In this document: one piece after another, positions 37,557-57,330 of the stretch
Position numbering within the stretch: position 1 is the first letter of the stretch
How the letters are laid out: the number at the start of each line of letters is the position of its first letter
Translations under genes and position numbers: made by a program
The notes under the pieces: model-generated
Databases searched by the model: none
Seen by the model: only the letters and a program-made list of their open reading frames with translations
What the model was told of the DNA's origin: nothing
NCBI RefSeq assembly: GCF_022180385.2
Contig: NZ_BQME02000001.1
Coordinates: 822,501 to 886,500 of the forward strand
Reading direction: 5' to 3'
DNA from: Paenibacillus sp. L3-i20
GTDB lineage: Bacteria; Bacillota; Bacilli; Paenibacillales; Paenibacillaceae
Length of the DNA stretch: 64,000 nt

Positions 37557-39884
37557 CTACTTCACTACATGCCTTTTCTGCGCCACAACCAGCACATCCA
37601 TCGCTCTTGCTTCATTTACAACTACATTCATTGTCGACCCGCTGAGCCATCGTTTCCACCATGGTTGCTTCGTTTGTCCGAGCACAAGTTGAGAACAACC
37701 TAACCTATTGGCAATATCGACAATCTCTCGTCCAATCTCGTACCGCATCCCTGCTTCATGCATCACAAATACACCGCCAAGCCGCTCCGTTAATGCTTGA
37801 ATAGCTTCTACTCTTAACTGGTCAATTTCACATTCTTCCTTCCCATAAGGTTGGATATAGACCGTATGCCAAGTTGCCTTCAATCGGTGTGCAATGCGGA
37901 AGCCACGCCTGATTAAACGTTCTGCATGGTCGCTAAGCGATACGAAAACACAGATGGATTCCTTCCGTCTCCATGGTCCACGAAGGGAGCTCGTTCTTTC
38001 CCACGCCTCAAGTCGTTCATCAACATCATCTGCAATTTCCCGAAGGGCCAGCTCTCTTAGTGCAATCAAGTTGCCCACTTTAAAAAAATGATTCAGTGAT
38101 TGTTCTACCTTGTCGAGCGCATACACTTTACCATCCCGCAGCCGCTGCCTAAGCGCAGTTGGGGCAACATCGATCAGCTCAACTTCATCTGCATATCGCA
38201 ATATACTATCTGGAACTGTCTCTCTGACCCTTACACCCGTAACTCCCTCTACAGCATCATTCAAACTTTCTAAATGTTGAACATTCATAGTAGAAATAAC
38301 GGAAATGCCGGCTTGAAGAATTTCAAGCACATCCTCATATCGTTTCTTGTTAATGGAGCTAGGCACATTTGTATGAGCAAGCTCGTCAACAAGTACTACC
38401 TCTGGATGTAGACGTATAATTTCATCCCTATCCATCTCTTGAAGCGTTGCCCCTCTGTAATCGATGACTTTAAGCGGCACTTTGCTAAGTGCTCCAACCT
38501 GCTCTAGTGTTTCTTTTCGTCCATGTGTCTCAAGCAAACCAATGATGACGTTAACACCTTCTTGTAGCAAAGAATTGCCTTCACGCAGCATCGCATAGGT
38601 TTTGCCTACACCTGGTGCAGCACCTATAAATACTTTGAACTTACCTCTTCTAATGGATTGTGTCTTCTCCTCGATCTGCGCAGCACTTAATCTGCGATAA
38701 TGTCCGGTACGATCTTCTGCATCAGCAGTTTTGGCAGGGAGAATACGCTCGCCATCGAGCTCCGCTCGATCCGCTACAATAAAGAGATCCACCTCTCTCA
38801 TCTTCCAGAGAAGCCCATGAATAACGGATCCCCGAATCAAATCTTGCCACGTTGTTTGCTTCGAGTGGCCTAATACGATTCGAGTCGCTTGCACTTCTCG
38901 GGCGTGCTTAAGCAGCTGCTCCGGCAGTTTCCTACGAGAGCGAAAGGGAAGTTCGCTGAACGCAGCATCGATCTTCTTACAGAGCTTCTTCATTGAATGA
39001 CGGAATGCTTCGGATTCGGTTGATAACTTGATCCCCGGCTTAACGAAAGCAACAACCGACAACTCACCATTCAACCGCTTCGCAATTTGTTGTCCTCTGC
39101 GCACGTAGATTGAACCATTCCAATGATATTGCGTGGAAACTAATATACGCTCTGTTACTCCTGACGGTCCCTCTAGTCCCTCTTCCTCTCGATGTCTCTC
39201 AAGCGAATCGTTTACTCCCTCTGCCATTAAACGAAGGGCTAACTCACGAAGGACAGCAAGATTTCCTCTCCGGAAAAGTGTCTTATTCATTACCTCTCCC
39301 AAGCTTCCATCCGACATCCGCTTCAGCATCGTCTCCGGCGATACATCGATCAAGCGCACCTCATCCGCCTGCTCCAAAATATCATCGGGTACCGTCTCTG
39401 CCGCCTCAAGACCTATCCGCTTTTTGGCTAGCTCGCGTACACCTTCAAGGTCATACACGTTGACCGTAACCATGACGCTAATACCAAGTGATTGCAAATA
39501 GCGAATATCTTCGAGACGAGTCGCCCGGGGTGCTCCGTGTCTGTTCCGATGAGCCAAACCATCTGTCAGCACCACTTCTGGATTACGTTCTACAATGGCT
39601 TCGATATTGAGATCCTTTTTCTCTACGCTATTGCAATCCCACTTCATACTATCAATACGCTCTAGTCCCTCTAACTGCTGTACGGTATCCGGTCTGCGCA
39701 GGGTTGATACTGCACAATATACAACATCAACACCGCTTTTCTTAAGCGTATGCCCTTCGCGGAGCATATGATACGTTTTTCCCGATCCGCTAACCGACCC
39801 AATATAAATATTGAGCCGTCCACGATGAAGATCGTGAATGGATCGGAGCAGCTCCTCCGGTGTCTTCCGTCGATATTCGTTCAT
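37557..39884 (-). CDS. Tandem-duplicated KdpD sensor protein without kinase
   Basis: About 775 aa made of two copies of the KdpD N-terminal module: KdpD domain (about 10-215) + USP domain (about 235-370), then KdpD domain (about 400-615) + USP domain (about 635-770). There are no membrane segments and no histidine kinase. Copy 2 is canonical: Walker A GAAPGVGKTYAM, Walker B VVLVDELAHTN, NVQHLESLND. Copy 1 is diverged: GSVSGSGKTYHM, VVLTDGLAHRN (Glu lost), NVYDLEGVRE. In Staphylococcus aureus the KdpD USP domain binds c-di-AMP. Last gene of the kdp operon. ATG 39884 with GGAAGGGG upstream. Confidence 0.93.
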   Translation of the reverse strand: MNEYRRKTPEELLRSIHDLHRGRLNIYIGSVSGSGKTYHMLREGHTLKKSGVDVVYCAVSTLRRPDTVQQLEGLERIDSMKWDCNSVEKKDLNIEAIVERNPEVVLTDGLAHRNRHGAPRATRLEDIRYLQSLGISVMVTVNVYDLEGVRELAKKRIGLEAAETVPDDILEQADEVRLIDVSPETMLKRMSDGSLGEVMNKTLFRRGNLAVLRELALRLMAEGVNDSLERHREEEGLEGPSGVTERILVSTQYHWNGSIYVRRGQQIAKRLNGELSVVAFVKPGIKLSTESEAFRHSMKKLCKKIDAAFSELPFRSRRKLPEQLLKHAREVQATRIVLGHSKQTTWQDLIRGSVIHGLLWKMREVDLFIVADRAELDGERILPAKTADAEDRTGHYRRLSAAQIEEKTQSIRRGKFKVFIGAAPGVGKTYAMLREGNSLLQEGVNVIIGLLETHGRKETLEQVGALSKVPLKVIDYRGATLQEMDRDEIIRLHPEVVLVDELAHTNVPSSINKKRYEDVLEILQAGISVISTMNVQHLESLNDAVEGVTGVRVRETVPDSILRYADEVELIDVAPTALRQRLRDGKVYALDKVEQSLNHFFKVGNLIALRELALREIADDVDERLEAWERTSSLRGPWRRKESICVFVSLSDHAERLIRRGFRIAHRLKATWHTVYIQPYGKEECEIDQLRVEAIQALTERLGGVFVMHEAGMRYEIGREIVDIANRLGCSQLVLGQTKQPWWKRWLSGSTMNVVVNEARAMDVLVVAQKRHVVK

Positions 39885-39902
39885 CCCGTTTTCCCCTTCC
39901 CA

Positions 39903-39954: not shown

Positions 39955-40539
39955 TTATGAAGTTAAAGCTTGCAGATCTTTATTGAGCAACAACACATTT
40001 ACCGTCTTTTCTCCGAACAACCCAAGCAAGCGCCCTTCTGTATGTTTATTTACAAGGGTCTCCACTTCTTCTTCGGACATCCCATTGCTCTCGCTTACTC
40101 TTGGAATTTGCGCCAATGCTGCTTCCACACTAATATGAGGGTCCAGGCCCGAACCCGAGTTAGTAATAAGATCAATTGGAAGCTGATCAACAGGAACGTT
40201 TGGATTGTTCACTTTCCACGCCTCGATAGATTCCTTCGTACGTGCTAATAAATCTGGATTGGAAGGTGCATAGTTTGGTGTTCCAGAGCCATCAGCAGCA
40301 TAATCAATACTGGACACACGTCCGTGGAACAGCTTCGGATCAGAAAAGGATTGACCGATCATCTTCGAACCAATCACTCCGCCTGCCTCGTTATAAACCA
40401 AACTTCCGTCCGCCTTATCCGGCATTATTACTTGCGCAATTCCTGTAACGGCTAAATTGTATATCACTCCGCAGAGTACCATTAGTACAAGGCTAGTTCG
40501 GATAATAATTGAAAACATATTCCCGCTCGCTTTCTCCAT
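39955..40539 (-). CDS. kdpC: Potassium-transporting ATPase subunit KdpC
   Basis: A 194-aa subunit with one N-terminal membrane segment (SLVLMVLCGVIYNLAVTGIAQ, about 11-32) and a periplasm-side-type domain containing GSKMIGQSFSDPKLFHGR and NPNVPVDQLPIDLITNSGSG, plus SGLDPHISVEAA, all KdpC signatures. Stabilises the KdpFABC complex and assists KdpB. 32 bases after kdpB; GAGAGGA upstream. Confidence 0.97.
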   Translation of the reverse strand: MEKASGNMFSIIIRTSLVLMVLCGVIYNLAVTGIAQVIMPDKADGSLVYNEAGGVIGSKMIGQSFSDPKLFHGRVSSIDYAADGSGTPNYAPSNPDLLARTKESIEAWKVNNPNVPVDQLPIDLITNSGSGLDPHISVEAALAQIPRVSESNGMSEEEVETLVNKHTEGRLLGLFGEKTVNVLLLNKDLQALTS

Positions 40540-40571: not shown

Positions 40572-42602
40572 TTACACCCATAGATGTACAATCATGTCGA
40601 TTGCTTTTATTCCTACAAAAGGTACAACAACACCACCAAAGCCATATATAAAGAGATTACGACTAAGCAAACGGGATGATGACATCGGCTTGTAAGATAC
40701 ACCCCTCATAGCAAGTGGGATAAGCAACGGAATAATAACAGCATTAAATATTAATGCAGATAAAATTGCAGATTCAGGTGAACCCAGCTTCATAATATTT
40801 AGCCCGTTCATTTCTGGAATAGCGAGCATAAACATTGCAGGAATGATTGCGAAATATTTAGCAATATCATTTGCTATACTAAACGTCGTTAGTGCGCCTC
40901 TCGTCATAAGAAGCTGCTTGCCTATCGAAACAACCTCAATAATTTTAGAAGGATCGGAGTCCAAATCTACCATATTGGCTGCTTCCTTTGCCGCAGTTGT
41001 ACCGCTATTCATCGCAATTCCTACATCAGCTTGCGCAAGTGCCGGGGCATCATTCGTGCCGTCCCCTGTCATCGCAACGAGCTTCCCTTGAGCTTGCTCC
41101 TTCCGAATTACAGCGATCTTATCCTCTGGAGTGCTCTCAGCAATAAACTCATCTACTCCCGCTTCTCTAGCAATAGTTGCAGCAGTTAGTGGATTATCGC
41201 CTGTACACATCACGGTCTTAATACCCATCTCACGCATCTGCTGGAATCTTTCACGCATACCTGGCTTCACTGTATCTTTCAAATAAATGATGCCGTACAC
41301 GAGTCCGTCAACAGCAACTGCTAGCGGAGTGCCGCCTTGCATGGCAACTGCATCTCCGTGCGTCTTCAAGCTAGCTGGAACTTTGCCGCCTTGAGTTTCC
41401 ACCCATTGACGAATTGCATCCACCGCACCTTTACGAACTTTACGGCCATCCTTCAAATCCAATCCGCTCATTCGCGTCTCTGCTTTGAAATCAACGATTT
41501 CCGCATCTTCCGTAATTTGCGCATCCCATTCCACGCTGAACTTCTTATTCAGTTCCATAACAGATCGACCTTCTGGCGTTTCATCCTTTGATGAGCTAAT
41601 GCCAGCCCAACGAGCAAGCTCTTTCTTTTCCACGCCTTCTACCGGTATAAACTCGCTAGCCATCCGGTTGCCGAACGTAATCGTTCCTGTTTTGTCCAAA
41701 ATAATCGTATTAATGTCGCCAGCAGCTTCGACTGCTTTACCCGACATCGCAAGTACATTAAACTGCGTTACACGGTCCATACCTGCTATACCAATAGCAG
41801 ACAATAACCCGCCGATCGTTGTCGGGATTAAGCAGACTAAGAGTGCAATCAGCACAGGAACTTCAAGTGAAATATTTAAATATTTGCCGAAGAACGGGAG
41901 AGTTACAACGACGATTAAGAAAATTAATGTCAAGCTGATTAGAACCGTAGTCAAGGCGATTTCGTTTGGCGTTTTGCCACGCTTCGCCCCTTCAACTAAT
42001 GAGATCATCCGATCCAAAAACGAGTCGCCAGGATCGCTTGTTATACGCACTTTAATCTGGTCACTTACAACGCGAGTTCCTCCGGTAACGGAGTTGAAGT
42101 CACCGCCCGCTTCTTTAATGACAGGTGCGGATTCACCCGTAATCGCAGATTCATCTACAGATGCCAAACCTTCAATAACTTCTCCGTCGCCAGGGATAAG
42201 CTCCCCTTGCTGCACAAAGACAACGTCGCCTTTGCGAAGGGTGTGAGAAGGTACTGTTTCAACGCGGTTGTTAACAACCTTGCGAGCTGACATTTCTTTC
42301 TTCGCACTTTTTAACGAGTCAGCTTGCGCCTTGCCTCGCCCTTCTGCAAGCGCCTCAGCAAAGTTTGCAAATAAAATCGTCAAGAGCAGAATGAGTGCAA
42401 CGGCTACATTAAACCATGGCTTAACGAGCGACTCGCCGAATATGTCAGGTACAAAAATAAGCAAAACCGTTATTAGAAAACCAATTTCTACAACGAACAT
42501 AATTGGATTTTTTATCATAACGCGGGGATCAAGCTTCAGAAAGGCATCTTTTATCGCCTTGCTCGCAATCGCTCCCGTTATCGTCGATTGATGTTTACTC
42601 AT
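40572..42602 (-). CDS. kdpB: Potassium-transporting P-type ATPase subunit KdpB
   Basis: A 676-aa P-type ATPase that powers K+ import. Motifs: TGES in AITGESAPV (about 158), phosphorylated Asp in [13 protein letters not shown] (about 303), nucleotide-binding KGAVDAI, hinge [17 protein letters not shown] (about 510-526). Membrane helices in the expected places; length matches Escherichia coli KdpB. 22 bases after kdpA. Confidence 0.98.
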
Positions 42603-42624: not shown

Positions 42625-44307
42625 TTAAGGCTTCAAGGTTAGCTGCTCAGCAATTGGACCTAGTACAAGCGCTGGGAAGAAGGTTAATGCCCCAACGATC
42701 ACAACAGTTCCGATGAACAGTGTAGCGAACAGCCCATTATCTGTTCGGAATGTACCGCTTGATTCTGGCACTGCCTTCTTAGCAAGCAATGAACCTGCTA
42801 CAGCAAGCAGCGTTACTAGACCGAAGTAACGACCTAAGAACATTACAATTCCCGTCGAAATATTCCAGAATGGCGTATTGTCACCAAGTCCTTCGAAGCC
42901 TGATCCATTATTTGCAGCCGATGATGTATATTCGTAGATTACTTGTGTAATTCCATGGAAACCGCCATTAGATATCGTTTCTGGATACAGAGTGACTGCG
43001 ATAGCAGTTGGCACCAAGATTAGAATCGGCTGTGCCAGTAGAGTGATTGCGATTAGTTTCATCTCTCTGCTCTCGATCTTCTTGCCAAGAAACTCTGGCG
43101 TCCGTCCAACCATTAGACCCGCAAGGAAGACGGCAATGATGGCATACATCAGCACGTTGATGAAGCCTGCACCAATTCCTCCATAAATCGTATTTAGCAT
43201 CATGTTCGCTAAAGGCACAAGACCCCCAATTGGTGTTAATGTATCGTGCATCGTATTAACTCCGCCCGTCTCCGAAGCGGTCGTCACGACAGAATATAAG
43301 GACGATTGTGCAACTCCAAGCCTTACTTCTTTCCCCTCCATACTACCTTGTGAGGCGTCTACTCCTAGTGCATTCAAAACAGGATTTCCTGCATTTTCAG
43401 CGACCAAAGATACGGTTAACATAATGACAAACATAATGCCCATAGCAGCGAACAATACGTTTCCTTGCTTCTTATTGCCGATCATCTTACCGTAAGCAAA
43501 CGGAAGTGATGTCGTTACTAACAGCATTAGCAGCATTTGAAGCATATTGGATAGTACTGTTGGATTTTCAAGTGGGTGAGCAGAGTTTACTCCATAGAAG
43601 CCGCCACCATTATTACCAAGCTCTTTAATCGCTAAGAAGGAACCTACCGGCCCGCGAGCAATCGATTGCTCGGCACCTTCTAATGTTGTTGCCGTTACAG
43701 TTGGTTCAAGTGTTTGCGGAACCCCTTGGGATACAAAAACTAGAGCCGTTACAAATGCAATCGGCATAAGCACACGAGTAATGGATCGTATCATATCGAC
43801 GAAGAAGTTACCGAGCGGCTTACCTGCAAGAGCGCGAATAAAAGCGATAGCCGCTGCAAATGTTGTAGCCGGTGCGGTAAACATCAAAAATACGATAGCG
43901 ATCATCTGTGCTAGATAAGATAGTCCGCTTTCACCGCTATAATGTTGTAGATTCGTATTCGTCATGAAACTGATTGCTGTATTAAAAGCGAGTGTCGGTT
44001 CCATTGCAGCAATATCACTAGGGTTCAGCGGTAAAAGATGCTGAAGTCTGAATATCGCATACACGATTAGTATCATAAAAGCGTTAATACATAGTATCGA
44101 AAGCACATATTGCTTCCAATTTTGATTGTTGTTCTTTATTCCACTAAGCCGCATTAACGGCTTTTCTATCCAGCCGAATACTCTATCCACCCCTGTTGGG
44201 GTATAATCAAACGCTTTTGCAATATATAAACCAACTGGCTTCGCCAGCAGAGCCGCGATCAACAACAAAACAGCTATCGAGACAATCCCTATCATGGTCA
44301 ATTCCAT
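42625..44307 (-). CDS. kdpA: Potassium-transporting ATPase subunit KdpA
   Basis: A 560-aa channel-like subunit with ten or so membrane helices and the four selectivity-filter-type loops, including [20 protein letters not shown] (about 112-130), [20 protein letters not shown] (about 225-245), [18 protein letters not shown] and NNGSGFEGL. Binds and selects K+. ATG 44307 nearly touches GAGGG; the TTG two codons further in has better spacing and may be the true start. Confidence 0.97.
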
Positions 44308-44319
44308 TCCCTCGTTTCG

Positions 44320-44397
44320 TCAAAATTGTTCAGGGTTTACAAGTACATATAATAAATAAACTACTATTGCAGCTATAAGGGGGTACAAGAGCATCAT
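44320..44397 (-). CDS. kdpF: KdpF, small stabilising subunit (25 aa)
   Basis: A 25-aa single-helix peptide, MMLLYPLIAAIVVYLLYVLV ending in NPEQF. The YLLYVLVNPEQF end matches the KdpF pattern YLVYALINAEAF. ATG overlaps the TGA of the preceding small gene (ATGA) and kdpA begins 12 bases after its stop, the classical kdpF position. Small enough to be missed by automatic annotation. Confidence 0.88.
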   Translation of the reverse strand: MMLLYPLIAAIVVYLLYVLVNPEQF

Positions 44398-44504
44398 TGT
44401 TCTTTTCCCCCATCACTTTTCGTTTCTTTTGCGGACCAAGCCGCAAGTCCCCACATCGAGAGAAATAATACGAACAACAATGCAATCATCGCAATGTCTA
44501 GCAT
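44394..44504 (-). CDS. 36-aa membrane peptide upstream of kdpF
   Basis: Reads MLDIAMIALLFVLFLSMWGL then AAWSAKETKSDGGKEQ: one membrane helix and a charged cytosolic-type tail. GGAGGAAGCGGG precedes ATG 44504. It overlaps the 141-aa gene by 7 bases at the start and kdpF by 4 bases at the end, so it is tightly coupled into the kdp operon. I know no name for it; it is a candidate additional small Kdp subunit. Confidence 0.75.
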   Translation of the reverse strand: MLDIAMIALLFVLFLSMWGLAAWSAKETKSDGGKEQ

Positions 44505-44923
44505 CCCGCTTCCTCCTTCATCTTCTCTTCTTCTGCAACGACCAGCTCTGATGGATGATCTGTTGCGTGAAACAATCGATCTGCACCAAGATACCGATAT
44601 AGTCCCGGTATGCCTCCATTTTGCATGACCACAATAATTCGACCAGTAACAAGCGGTCTAAATAATCGAAGATACCTGCAAGTGAGCGGGGTGGAGTCGT
44701 CAAACAAATAAACATCCTCTATCCAGCCCTGCTGTAGCGGGCAATCCGTTGCTTTTGTATCGAGTCGTACGAAATTATTAATACCGAAACCCTCCAGAAC
44801 TCGCTTCTGCCGACCGCTGTTAACGACCGCAGCTACTGGAATTCCTTTGGACATTAGCAATCTCAAAAACTGGCGAGCAGTCTCGTTCGGTGCATAAACA
44901 AGCGTCATCCTTGTGTCGCTCAT
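44498..44923 (-). CDS. Unrecognised Rossmann-like protein, first gene of kdp operon
   Basis: A 141-aa soluble protein: beta-alpha start TLVYAPNETARQFLRLLMSK, then VAAVVNS, VYLFDDSTPLTCRYLRLFRP and GLYRYLGADRLFHATDHP. The alternating pattern looks like a small nucleotide-binding fold but lacks a GxGxxG. A paralogue lies at 58991-59446 with the same APNE, VYLF and Y-R-LGA blocks. ATG 44923 has AAGGAGG seven bases upstream. Directly behind the tandem c-di-AMP riboswitches; overlaps the 36-aa gene. Function unknown, probably tied to K+ homeostasis. Confidence 0.75.
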   Translation of the reverse strand: MSDTRMTLVYAPNETARQFLRLLMSKGIPVAAVVNSGRQKRVLEGFGINNFVRLDTKATDCPLQQGWIEDVYLFDDSTPLTCRYLRLFRPLVTGRIIVVMQNGGIPGLYRYLGADRLFHATDHPSELVVAEEEKMKEEAGC

Positions 44924-44961
44924 CTTAGCAACCTCCTTTGTATATAGAAGCAAATTGGCAC

Positions 44962-45006
44962 AAAAAAAGAAGCCTGTAGAGGAGGGGTTCCTCACGGCTT
45001 CTTAGG
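44962..45006 (-). terminator. Terminator of kdp riboswitch 1 (promoter-distal)
   Basis: Minus strand AAGAAGCC - loop with GAGGAACCCCTC - GGCTTCTT followed by TTTTTGTG, 40 bases before the first kdp-operon start codon. Acts as expression platform. Confidence 0.85.
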
Positions 45007-45059
45007 CATAACGAAATAAGATTCGTGTTATGCATAATGAGCAGCAATTTGCCTCTCTC

Positions 45060-45225
45060 GAGTACGCTTACGAGGTTAGCTGTCGGATTCGGGCGTGAGA
45101 GTCGCCCTACCGGACCTAGCAAGGTCCGGATTCACCCCGGGACTTCTTATCATGTTAATTCATGATTGAAATCCGTTGGTTCCCCCGCTTTCTAATTCAG
45201 AAACTCAGCGTCTTGCATGTAAAAC
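45060..45225 (-). ncRNA. c-di-AMP riboswitch (ydaO/yuaA), kdp copy 1
   Basis: On the minus strand the conserved blocks appear in order: GCGGGGGAACCAA, CGGGGTGAATCC, a variable GGACCTTGC/GGTCC hairpin, GTAGGGCGACTCT, CGCCCGAATCCGACAGC, TAACCTCGTAAGCG. These are the ydaO-type aptamer blocks. c-di-AMP binding normally favours the downstream terminator (44962-45006), turning off K+ import genes. Confidence 0.93.
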
Positions 45226-45238
45226 TCCGAATTTAGAC

Positions 45239-45277
45239 AATAAAAAACCACAGAGGCGTATGTCGCCCTGCGGTCGT
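45239..45277 (-). terminator. Terminator of kdp riboswitch 2 (promoter-proximal)
   Basis: Minus strand ACCGCAGG - GCGACATACG - CCTCTGTGGT followed by TTTTTTATTG. It lies between the two tandem aptamers, so each aptamer has its own terminator. Confidence 0.85.
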
Positions 45278-45299
45278 TATGTTACACGATCACAAGTCA

Positions 45300-45500
45300 C
45301 ATCCTCTCTCTATCAACGCTGACGAGGTTAGCTGTCGGATTCGGGCAGTGAGAGTCGCCCTACGCTTATTCGATCCGTCCATGGCAGGATCGCAAGCGAT
45401 TCACCCCATGTCCCTTGTCCTTTCGGCTCTCACACCGTGCAGACAATTGACGCTTGGGTCCCCCGTATTCCCCTAAGGGAAATTTAGCGATTAAGAACGC
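45300..45500 (-). ncRNA. c-di-AMP riboswitch (ydaO/yuaA), kdp copy 2
   Basis: Minus strand blocks: ACGGGGGACCCAA (CC in place of AACC), ATGGGGTGAATCG, a GCGATCCTG/CAGGATCG-type hairpin, GTAGGGCGACTCT, TGCCCGAATCCGACAGC, TAACCTCGTCAGCG. It precedes copy 1 in the same transcript. The variable arms differ in length from copy 1, so this is not a very recent duplication. Confidence 0.92.
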
Positions 45501-45737
45501 AGTACATTTATTTCATTCGGTAACGTTAATTCATACTCGAATCTTACTCCTGATATTGGTAAAGTGCAAAGGTGATAAAGAACCTTCTTTGCTCCATTTT
45601 CCGTATATTGTAATCGAAATTAGCGTTTACAATGACTATTATCGAAAGAATACTCTTCTTTACTCTAGATTTCTCTATATATCACAAATAAAGATGTATC
45701 TGCCGCTACAGAGGACAAATTTAGGCTAAATTCAATA
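45501..45737. other. Divergent promoter region between riboswitches
   Basis: About 240 bases without a supported gene. It must hold the minus-strand promoter of the kdp transcript (a TTGTAA-type -35 and AATATA near 45600 are possible but weak). A plus-strand frame at 45454-45729 has no ribosome binding site. Confidence 0.4.
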
Positions 45738-45766
45738 TTTACATTAATATACTTAACGAGTAATAT
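45738..45766 (+). promoter_or_regulatory. Promoter of the USP-gene riboswitch transcript
   Basis: TTTACA (45738-45743), 17 bases, TAATAT (45761-45766) on the plus strand; the riboswitch aptamer starts about 15 bases downstream. Confidence 0.7.
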
Positions 45767-45782
45767 GATTAAAAAATAGCTT

Positions 45783-45924
45783 CATTGTCGAATTTCCGCT
45801 TTAGGAAATCGGGGGAACCAATCACCGAATAAGTACAAACTCATCGGTGCGGGGTGAATCTTGGAATCTTCCAAGTAGGGTACTCTCATACCCGAATCCG
45901 TCAGCTAACCTCGTAGACGCAATG
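45783..45924 (+). ncRNA. c-di-AMP riboswitch (ydaO/yuaA) upstream of USP gene
   Basis: Plus strand: TCGGGGGAACCAATC, GCGGGGTGAATCTTGG, GTAGGGTACTCTC, ATACCCGAATCCGTCAGC, TAACCTCGTAGACG. Outer stem CATTG (45783-45787) pairs with CAATG (45920-45924). Third copy in under 900 bases, facing away from the kdp pair. Confidence 0.93.
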
Positions 45925-45925
45925 A

Positions 45926-45959
45926 GAGAGAACCCCTCACAAACTGTGGTCGTTCTCTT
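45926..45959 (+). terminator. Expression-platform hairpin of the USP riboswitch
   Basis: GAGAGAAC / GTTCTCTT outer stem with inner CACA/TGTG; only a poor T tract follows, so termination may be weak or the hairpin may act otherwise. Confidence 0.55.
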
Positions 45960-46003
45960 CCATGGTTATTTGTTATGTTCTCAAACGAAAGGGGTTTTTA
46001 CTA

Positions 46004-46654
46004 ATGAGTGAACGATATCGACAGGAAAATGTATTGGTTTGTGTCCACTATGGACCTAATGGGGAAACGTTAATTCGTCGCGGAGCAAAAATTGCCGTGG
46101 CACTTCAAGCTACTCTTACCATCTTGACGATTAATCCACTCCGAGACGATGAGTACAACGAAACGAAACTGCAATACATGGCAGAATGGAAGCGGCTTGC
46201 GGCGGAGCTCCGAGCGGAATTTGTAACGGAAGAAAGCAAATCTAGACGAATTGCCGATACTATCGTATCTGTAGCCAAGCGTAGACAAATTACACATATC
46301 ATTATGGGGCAATCCGCTCGTACTCGTTGGGAAGAGTTGACGAAGGGATCTATCAGCAATAATATATTGAAACAACTCGAGTTCATAGACTTGCATGTTG
46401 TGTCTGTGCAACGCGAAATGGCTCATATTCAGGACGAATATGAACCAGGGGTTAAAGCTTATTTAGCTCCTGCAGCACACGGCAAAGAACTAAGACTTGG
46501 CTCTGCTCCTAATAATGAAGAAGAAGGCCTGTTCTTCAAAGTGTACGGCACAGATTTCAATAATGGTGTCTTCAAACCATCTAAGCAGACTGAAAATCAG
46601 TATTATAAAATTTATGACGGTGAGGTCGAACCGAAGAATAGCACTAGCAAGTGA
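46004..46654 (+). CDS. Stand-alone KdpD-type universal stress protein
   Basis: A 216-aa protein. Residues about 6-130 form a USP fold of the KdpD kind: NVLVCVHYGPNGETLIRRGA and IIMGQSARTRWEELTKGSIS, close to the USP parts of 37557-39884 (ALVLGHSKQTTWQDL). The last 80 residues have no recognised domain. Start ATG 46004 (AAAGGGG upstream), 14 codons inside the longest frame. It sits behind its own c-di-AMP riboswitch and diverges from kdp, so its job is probably in K+ or c-di-AMP signalling. Confidence 0.85.
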   Translation: MSERYRQENVLVCVHYGPNGETLIRRGAKIAVALQATLTILTINPLRDDEYNETKLQYMAEWKRLAAELRAEFVTEESKSRRIADTIVSVAKRRQITHIIMGQSARTRWEELTKGSISNNILKQLEFIDLHVVSVQREMAHIQDEYEPGVKAYLAPAAHGKELRLGSAPNNEEEGLFFKVYGTDFNNGVFKPSKQTENQYYKIYDGEVEPKNSTSK

Positions 46655-56999: not shown

Positions 57000-57330
57000 A
57001 AAAATCCCACCCCCAAGACCGTAGTCTTGGGGACGAGATTGTTCATCGCGGTGCCACCCCAGATTCGTTAATATGTCACCATATTAACCTCATTAAGTAC
57101 GACATTAACAGGCTTTAAACACTATCGCCGGAATGTTATACTATCGCTCGATAACAGGAGCTACTGTCGGTTCATCTACTCTGGCTGCTAATCCTTAGCC
57201 GCCCGAGTTTCCGAAACGATGCTCAGAGACTTGCTTCAAAAGCGCGTTCCTACCCCTTCCCAGTTACCGGGGCTCCCTGTAAAAAACTAACGCAATTTAC
57301 TCTTCTCTTCTGTGCATTTAAAAGTATTGT
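57000..57330 (-). ncRNA. T-box leader
   Basis: Minus strand: stem I region (about 57330-57220) with CAGGGAGCCCCGGTAACTGG and pairing GCGTT/AACGC, then the T-box AATCTGGGGTGGCACCGCG (57044-57062), then the terminator CCCCAAGAC-TACG-GTCTTGGGG with TTTTTTT (57000-57020). The tRNA-binding TGGC predicts a G at the discriminator position. Specifier candidates in the loop before TCTCTG are AGC (Ser), CAA (Gln) or GAA (Glu); all fit a G discriminator, GCA (Ala) does not. Confidence 0.9.

Follow-up and report, generated by a model that had tools for sequence, protein, structure and literature searches.

The window analysed here, a stretch of 64,000 nucleotides from Paenibacillus sp. L3-i20, carries a set of kdp genes on the minus strand. 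Among the best 80 of 381 kdpA places in named genomes, the nearest kdpA to that of the window belongs to Paenibacillus sp. GSMTC-2017 (90%). The first gene 3' of the leader described below is an open reading frame of 141 amino acids without a Pfam match (44498-44923, minus). Then come kdpA (42625-44307, minus; Pfam KdpA), kdpB (40572-42602, minus; E1-E2 ATPase and hydrolase domains), which sits between kdpA and kdpC, kdpC itself (39955-40539, minus; Pfam KdpC) and the gene of a KdpD-like protein (37557-39890, minus). This protein has two KdpD sensor domains (matched as two KdpD stretches plus Usp) and no histidine-kinase domain. In the USP module at its C-terminus, we read by eye SLS-X20-WHTVY, which comes close to SXS-X20-FTAXY, the c-di-AMP motif of KdpD (PMC4686210). 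On the plus strand, at 46004-46654, lies a universal stress protein (USP) gene of 216 amino acids; at 28-30% identity, its product is a relative of each of the two USP modules in the KdpD-like protein. The window also holds a T-box leader (57026-57321, minus; 100.4 bits).

Using cmscan with the Rfam gathering thresholds, we found exactly three matches to the c-di-AMP riboswitch RF00379 in the window, all of full length and with E-values from 3e-21 to 3e-19. Laxer filters on 44300-46300 still gave three, and the whole genome has nine. The upstream copy before kdp, A (45301-45499, minus; 89.6 bits), is a structural variant of the c-di-AMP/ydaO type; the downstream copy B (45050-45220, minus; 95.4 bits) and the divergent copy C (45776-45933, plus; 88.4 bits) are canonical. 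The gathering score is 38. The first-pass annotation of this DNA had placed three complete ydaO-type aptamers here and predicted that an Rfam covariance-model search would return three matches above threshold; both statements were borne out. A, B and C are rows of an alignment of 25 sequences, the invariant columns of which are present in all three. An RNAalifold structure of the 25 aptamers was set aside because its GGGGU pairing departs from Rfam, and the Rfam line was used instead. Below, "P6 loop" denotes the loop of the 3' GGGC...GCCC hairpin and "tail" the GAGAG stretch 3' of P1. The P6 loop is complementary to the tail in all three copies, by GAGAG/CUCUC in A and B and by seven pairs in C. 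Within 45499-44962, A and B follow each other without an open reading frame in between, each with its own terminator-like hairpin, in the order A-T1-B-T2, and their RF00379 matches are 80 bases apart. T1 (45242-45274, minus) has a predicted energy of -18.4 kcal/mol and a U-run at 45242-45247. No sigma-70-like site was seen on the minus strand in the interval between A and B, and a search for the promoter of the kdp leader identified none.

To see how this arrangement is distributed, we assembled a first set from the best 80 of 381 confirmed kdpA places in named genomes plus the window (81 sources). A covariance model built from 25 aptamers gave 141 matches in it. Four of them, below 35 bits, were removed before counting (L079:16288, L072:17253, L084:6931 and L068:6549); the last two may be decayed upstream copies. 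The 24 Bacillus/Brevibacillus-type aptamers were read with a second parser, and the downstream copy of L025 gave an odd parse. In this best-80-of-381 set plus window, a tandem before kdpA, defined as two same-strand copies less than 400 bp apart, occurred in at least 34 of the 81 sources, a lower bound since some kdp loci (e.g., L023) end early upstream. A single copy was present in another 34, and L020 and L086 had other multiples. Fourteen of the 34 tandem loci in the set, counted by hand, have a divergent third copy. It had been supposed that tandem ydaO arrays are rare. These counts speak against that, as do the 77 c-di-AMP riboswitch doublets reported as a "pseudo-cooperative" class in the available text of PMC9481103. 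Locus L086 (6492-7741) has three same-strand aptamers 5' of kdpA, the first two A-type and the third canonical. The single copies L052:7606-7810 and L087:6984-7231 join an A-type aptamer to a B-type platform and look like recombinants of A and B.

The cores of A and B in the window are 65% identical. A recent duplication or gene conversion was considered as their origin and rejected: the distance between A and B of the same locus (0.344) is about that across loci (0.349). In the first set (best 80 of 381 plus window), the nearest neighbour was of the same kind for 35 of 38 A-type and 32 of 35 B-like copies. By sequence comparison, A and B are thus separate lineages.

A differs from B and C by a hairpin in variable region 1, CGG-UGUGAGAG-CCG (45424-45437, minus). 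Its loop contains the 7-mer GUGAGAG (45427-45433), the exact complement of A's own P6-loop heptamer CUCUCAC (45348-45354, minus), which also has 5 nt of complementarity to the tail. The P6 loop of A is predicted to pair with the internal loop at -10.9 kcal/mol and with the tail at -8.0 kcal/mol. The following counts refer to the best 80 of 381 places plus the window. The hairpin was present in 33 of 34 upstream copies (the exception is L027), in 3 of 34 single copies and in two copies of L086, and in none of the 34 downstream or 24 divergent copies. The loop octamer was identical in all 38 aligned A-type copies. The P6 loop read CUCUCAC in 38/38 A-type copies versus 23/99 other parsed copies, and GUGAGAG was found in variable region 1 of none of these 99. 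The stem of the hairpin covaries, with 33 doubly changed cells against a shuffled mean of 12.1 and none of 500 shuffles as high; the closing pair is G-C in 22 and A-U in 12 of the 34 distinct rows. Two of the five covariation measures fell within the shuffle range (80/500 and 79/500). The 7-nt complementarity between this putative decoy and the P6 loop is conserved, and the kissing pair does not covary, since its 7 + 7 nt hardly vary. Two loci, L020 (Bacillus) and L027 (Niallia), combine an A-like platform with an aptamer lacking the hairpin, as though the hairpin had been added to an ordinary switch.

The loop on the P5 side of A contains the palindrome CCAUGG (45379-45384, minus). In the first set (best 80 of 381 plus window), 23 of 38 A-type copies have CCAUGG, two have CCUAGG and none of the 99 others has CCAUGG; in the second set, described below, the two forms occur in 22 and 6 of 58 A-type copies. 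Its persistence as a palindrome despite the change suggests, on sequence grounds, a binding site or a kissing dimer. We looked within the same leader for another CCAUGG with which it could pair, and none occurred at a conserved place.

We then searched for the variant with a pattern made of the hairpin loop, its 3' side and GGGGUGAAU, leaving out the P6 loop sequence. Matches were obtained in 77 of 295 genomes sampled from the family and in 73 of 246 from the order, two samples with many genomes in common. Of 398 genomes of the phylum, 3 matched; these belong to the family of the window, and one is its own genome. A reversed control pattern had no match in the family, order and phylum samples. 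In the samples searched, the variant was thus seen only in the order of the window; among the named loci, L061 is labelled Bacillus sp. Sixty matching places were fetched as a second set, some apparently from the same species as the first, so that the two sets are not independent; L138 could not be parsed and L108 had no model match. Although absent from the pattern, CUCUCAC was the P6 loop sequence in 57 of the 58 parsed A-type copies. A KdpA match lay within the fetched region in 46 of 60. At six other places (L099, L100, L101, L117, L145 and L148), the A-type leader precedes an open reading frame that by eye resembles the 141-amino-acid one, and a KdpA match is absent from the regions fetched. 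The A-type copy of L146 precedes what we take, by eye, to be a KimA-like transporter, and that of L149 what is presumably a Ktr-like system.

The expression platform of A has a regular order: the tail GAGAGAGG (45303-45310, minus), a spacer, CUUGUGAUCG, CGACC(A/G)CAGGG and CCUCUGUGG with the U-run. The P6 loop may have its second partner in this tail, which is at the same time the outer strand of a predicted antiterminator, the 5' arm of which, CUUGUGAUCG (45287-45296, minus), pairs with 45268-45276. The 5' arm of T1 pairs with CUUGUGAUCG and its 3' arm can pair with the tail, which makes antiterminator and T1 mutually exclusive. Nine of the 38 A-type copies do not fit the platform pattern and were left out of the antiterminator and T1 alignments. 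In the 29 aligned platforms (26 distinct), the antiterminator arms were 96% and T1 95% paired. Covariation of the antiterminator was weak, as 39 of 500 shuffles reached its count of doubly changed pairs; by eye, the platform helix of L020 is extended by different bases, and a U-A pair is replaced by C-G in L051, L083 and L088. To estimate the effect of the tail on T1, we blocked it in silico in 33 platforms, which include two of the nine non-matching copies as well as L020 and L027. T1 pairing rose by more than 0.05 in 17 platforms, fell by that much in none and changed by 0.05 or less in 16. Blocking the spacer as a control raised T1 pairing in nine. Mean T1 pairing over the 33 platforms was 0.75 with a free tail, 0.92 with the tail blocked and 0.84 with the spacer blocked; in the window it went from 0.48 to 0.87 upon tail blocking. 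With a free tail, the antiterminator of the window is about as stable as T1, which is ahead by 0.4 kcal/mol once 79 nt are out. A leader peptide in the platform (GGAG...AUGAUGAAGCUUGUGAUC, "MMKLVI") was rejected, the frame by eye being broken in the window (AUG UGA), L051 and L083.

B has the same tail GAGAGAGG (45052-45059, minus), complementary to its P6 loop at 45095-45101. T2 (44962-45003, minus; U-run 44962-44968) forms in the fold of B of the window, and that of the close relative L010 has -18.7 kcal/mol. Within 44950-45053 (minus), the tail of B continues as GGCAAAUUG, and CAAUUUGC lies behind T2. By eye, relatives such as L052 have GGCAAC and GUUGCC at these places, which places the entire terminator between two complementary stretches. 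Folded at full length, B and C form their downstream hairpin with the tail either free or engaged, and the folds reveal no antiterminator of B; one is presumed. Switching by B and C would follow from their membership of a known class.

In C, partial-transcript folds predict an alternative hairpin between the tail GAGAGAAC (45926-45933, plus) and GUUCUCUU (45952-45959). The downstream hairpin, AACCCCU:AGGGGUU (45931-45937 with 45990-45996, plus), pairs with the Shine-Dalgarno stretch of the USP gene (45988-45994). It runs into five T, two of them inside the stem, and its homologue in L010 has no U-run. The pairing with the Shine-Dalgarno stretch and the missing U-run in L010 make it look more like a ribosome-site hairpin than a terminator. 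The first-pass annotation had assigned to each aptamer a hairpin of its own downstream, which holds for the two minus copies, with T1, T2 and their U-runs, and for C in this altered sense. It had also read C as tying a USP protein to the c-di-AMP signal. As a general link this was not sustained: by eye, among the divergent copies only those of the window and L010 precede a USP gene, and the USP protein of the window lacks the SXS-X20-FTAXY motif. Other divergent copies precede other small proteins and, in L019, a glutamine-synthetase-like protein (by eye). In five of them (L059, L061, L063, L067 and L077), we saw by eye a tail GGAGAG 6-9 nt 5' of an ATG that opens a frame, of 141-143 amino acids in four of the five. 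Judging from its position, this tail may be the ribosome site itself, in a translational c-di-AMP switch.

We favour, with a probability of about 0.45, a reading in which A and B are two OFF switches in series and the hairpin of A competes with the tail for the P6 loop, which would raise the threshold of A. The three aptamers, the two terminator-like hairpins and the hairpin of A with its complementarity and spread are read from sequence and comparison; from them we infer ligand binding, the exchange of partners and its direction, and the thresholds. An A-type aptamer with T1 is the sole aptamer seen 5' of kdpA in L014, L103, L106, L109 and L114 (in the last four, of the second set, the sequence viewed upstream of the aptamer spans only about 70 bases), which argues that A is an OFF switch. 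Should A be OFF, with a free tail leading to read-through, one would expect the tail on P6 in the bound state and the internal loop there in the ligand-free state. At low c-di-AMP, the internal GUGAGAG loop would hold the P6 loop of A, and the free tail and CUUGUGAUCG would form the antiterminator against T1. Transcription would then continue to B, which would be a usual OFF switch of this class, and kdp would be made. At high c-di-AMP, the ligand would stabilise the form of the A aptamer in which the tail occupies the P6 loop, as in ydaO, and so deprive the antiterminator of its outer strand; T1 would form, or T2 at B. Since the decoy pairing is predicted to be stronger than that with the tail, A should need more c-di-AMP than B, and together they would provide two thresholds and little leak. 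Two terminators in series before kdp had been noted at the outset. Two OFF switches remain the best reading of them; the copies are not equal, A being a variant of a separate lineage, so the tandem may shift the threshold no less than it steepens the response.

In a different reading, which we consider less likely, the hairpin has replaced the tail: it would be the partner of the P6 loop in bound A, the tail would serve only as a strand of the antiterminator, and c-di-AMP would act on T1 in some other way. The stronger pairing of the internal loop is in its favour. So are features of the tail, examined in 94 A-type copies (of 96, two dropped out under a stricter pattern). An additional stem separates P1 from the tail in 36/94 A-type versus 1/78 B-like copies, which fits this reading better than the decoy. 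A purine tail of this kind is present within 110 nt in 91 of the 94 A-type copies and missing from three (from 4/78 B-like copies), and L044 has no tail (nor T1) with the hairpin and P6 loop intact. A test of complementarity to P6 found a displaced tail in 37/94 A-type, 0/78 B-like, 1/24 divergent and 12/31 single non-A copies, the last, mostly of Bacillus type, being taken for a limit of the test. However, the inserted stems are closed in 31 of the 36 cases, and the tail can still adjoin P1. The tail also persists in L054, L065 and the second L086 copy, where T1 is lost. By eye, T1 is absent though the hairpin is kept in L044, L054, L065 and both A-type copies of L086, a point that counts against the decoy reading. 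The tail GGGAGGGG of L053, L058, L080 and L089 does not match T1 and by eye still fits P6 with one G-U pair. Moreover, if the tail were always free, the antiterminator would always compete with T1, and there would be no OFF switch.

It is very unlikely that the GUGAGAG loop of A serves instead to pair with the P6 loop of B and make the aptamers cooperate. The two loops are complementary in the window (-11.2), CUCUCAC occurs in 19 of 34 B copies of the first set (best 80 of 381 plus window), and T1 is absent from some leaders. In most leaders, though, T1 lies between A and B, and the motif is unchanged in the single-copy loci L014, L052 and L087. It is likewise unchanged where the loop of B differs: 15 of 34 B copies in the same best-80-of-381 set lack CUCUCAC in P6, 14 of them in loci with an A-type copy, so that the conserved partner should be A's own loop. 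There is also a slim chance that bound A holds P6 by the hairpin and sets the tail free, with A an ON and B an OFF switch and kdp made only at middle c-di-AMP. This follows from the folds, in which a free tail favours read-through, if the internal pairing belongs to the bound state; but in several loci A is the only copy 5' of kdpA, and there the sign of an ON switch would be wrong. Moreover, the c-di-AMP switches on potassium importers described in the available text of PMC6488665 and PMC9960051 are OFF switches. Least probable of all, we think, is a plain pseudo-cooperative doublet of two equal OFF switches in which the hairpin has no effect on switching. The published class of 77 doublets (PMC9481103, as far as available) provides its precedent; an invariant octamer loop within an otherwise variable region, and the absence of the hairpin from all 34 downstream copies (best 80 of 381 plus window), speak against it.

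Our preferred reading, two serial OFF switches with a decoy in A, has relatives among known systems. The doublets of PMC9481103 share with the window two RF00379-type aptamers per leader, mostly with a terminator between them, and the same ligand class. The available text describes neither an extra hairpin nor a difference between first and second copy, and "kdp" is absent from its main text. The kdpFABC riboswitch of Bacillus thuringiensis (PMC6488665) is likewise a c-di-AMP aptamer with an intrinsic terminator before kdp and an OFF switch; unlike the leader of the window, it is a single copy, and an extra hairpin goes unmentioned in the portion available. As far as these texts go, the reading of two OFF switches fits both the pseudo-cooperative class and this OFF switch. 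The ydaO RNA-Puzzles construct (PMC5393176; PDB 4QLM/4QLN) has, in the part of the paper available, the same core as the aptamers of the window, and a stable pseudoknot is mentioned for it there. By our own reading of its printed sequence, the loop CUCCUUCG and the tail CGAAGGAG are complementary. The tail is the sole partner seen in this construct, without an internal competitor hairpin, whereas A has one. The Na+/c-di-AMP tandem logic gate (PMC9337991) also consists of two serial riboswitches, each with its own terminator; it responds to two ligands, the tandem of the window to one. In the c-di-AMP/ydaO riboswitch literature searched, as far as its text was available, we found no description of the A-type hairpin, which is not proof of its absence.

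What appears to be new here is, on sequence evidence, the upstream copy A as a structural variant; the tandem itself was already known. A wider generalisation, to which we give somewhat less than even odds, is that the upstream kdp aptamers of the Paenibacillus order form a distinct subclass, in which one loop would swap between an internal hairpin and the tail. This exchange, rather than changes in the ligand pocket, would set the threshold, and for potassium uptake the tandem would work as a dimmer with two thresholds. The case bears on the open question of why some genes have a pair of riboswitches for the same ligand: since A and B are separate lineages in fixed order that differ by one separable hairpin, threshold versus steepness can be tested through a few loop bases. 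If true, the proposed mechanism would add to the c-di-AMP class a variant of peripheral architecture that is linked to potassium uptake.
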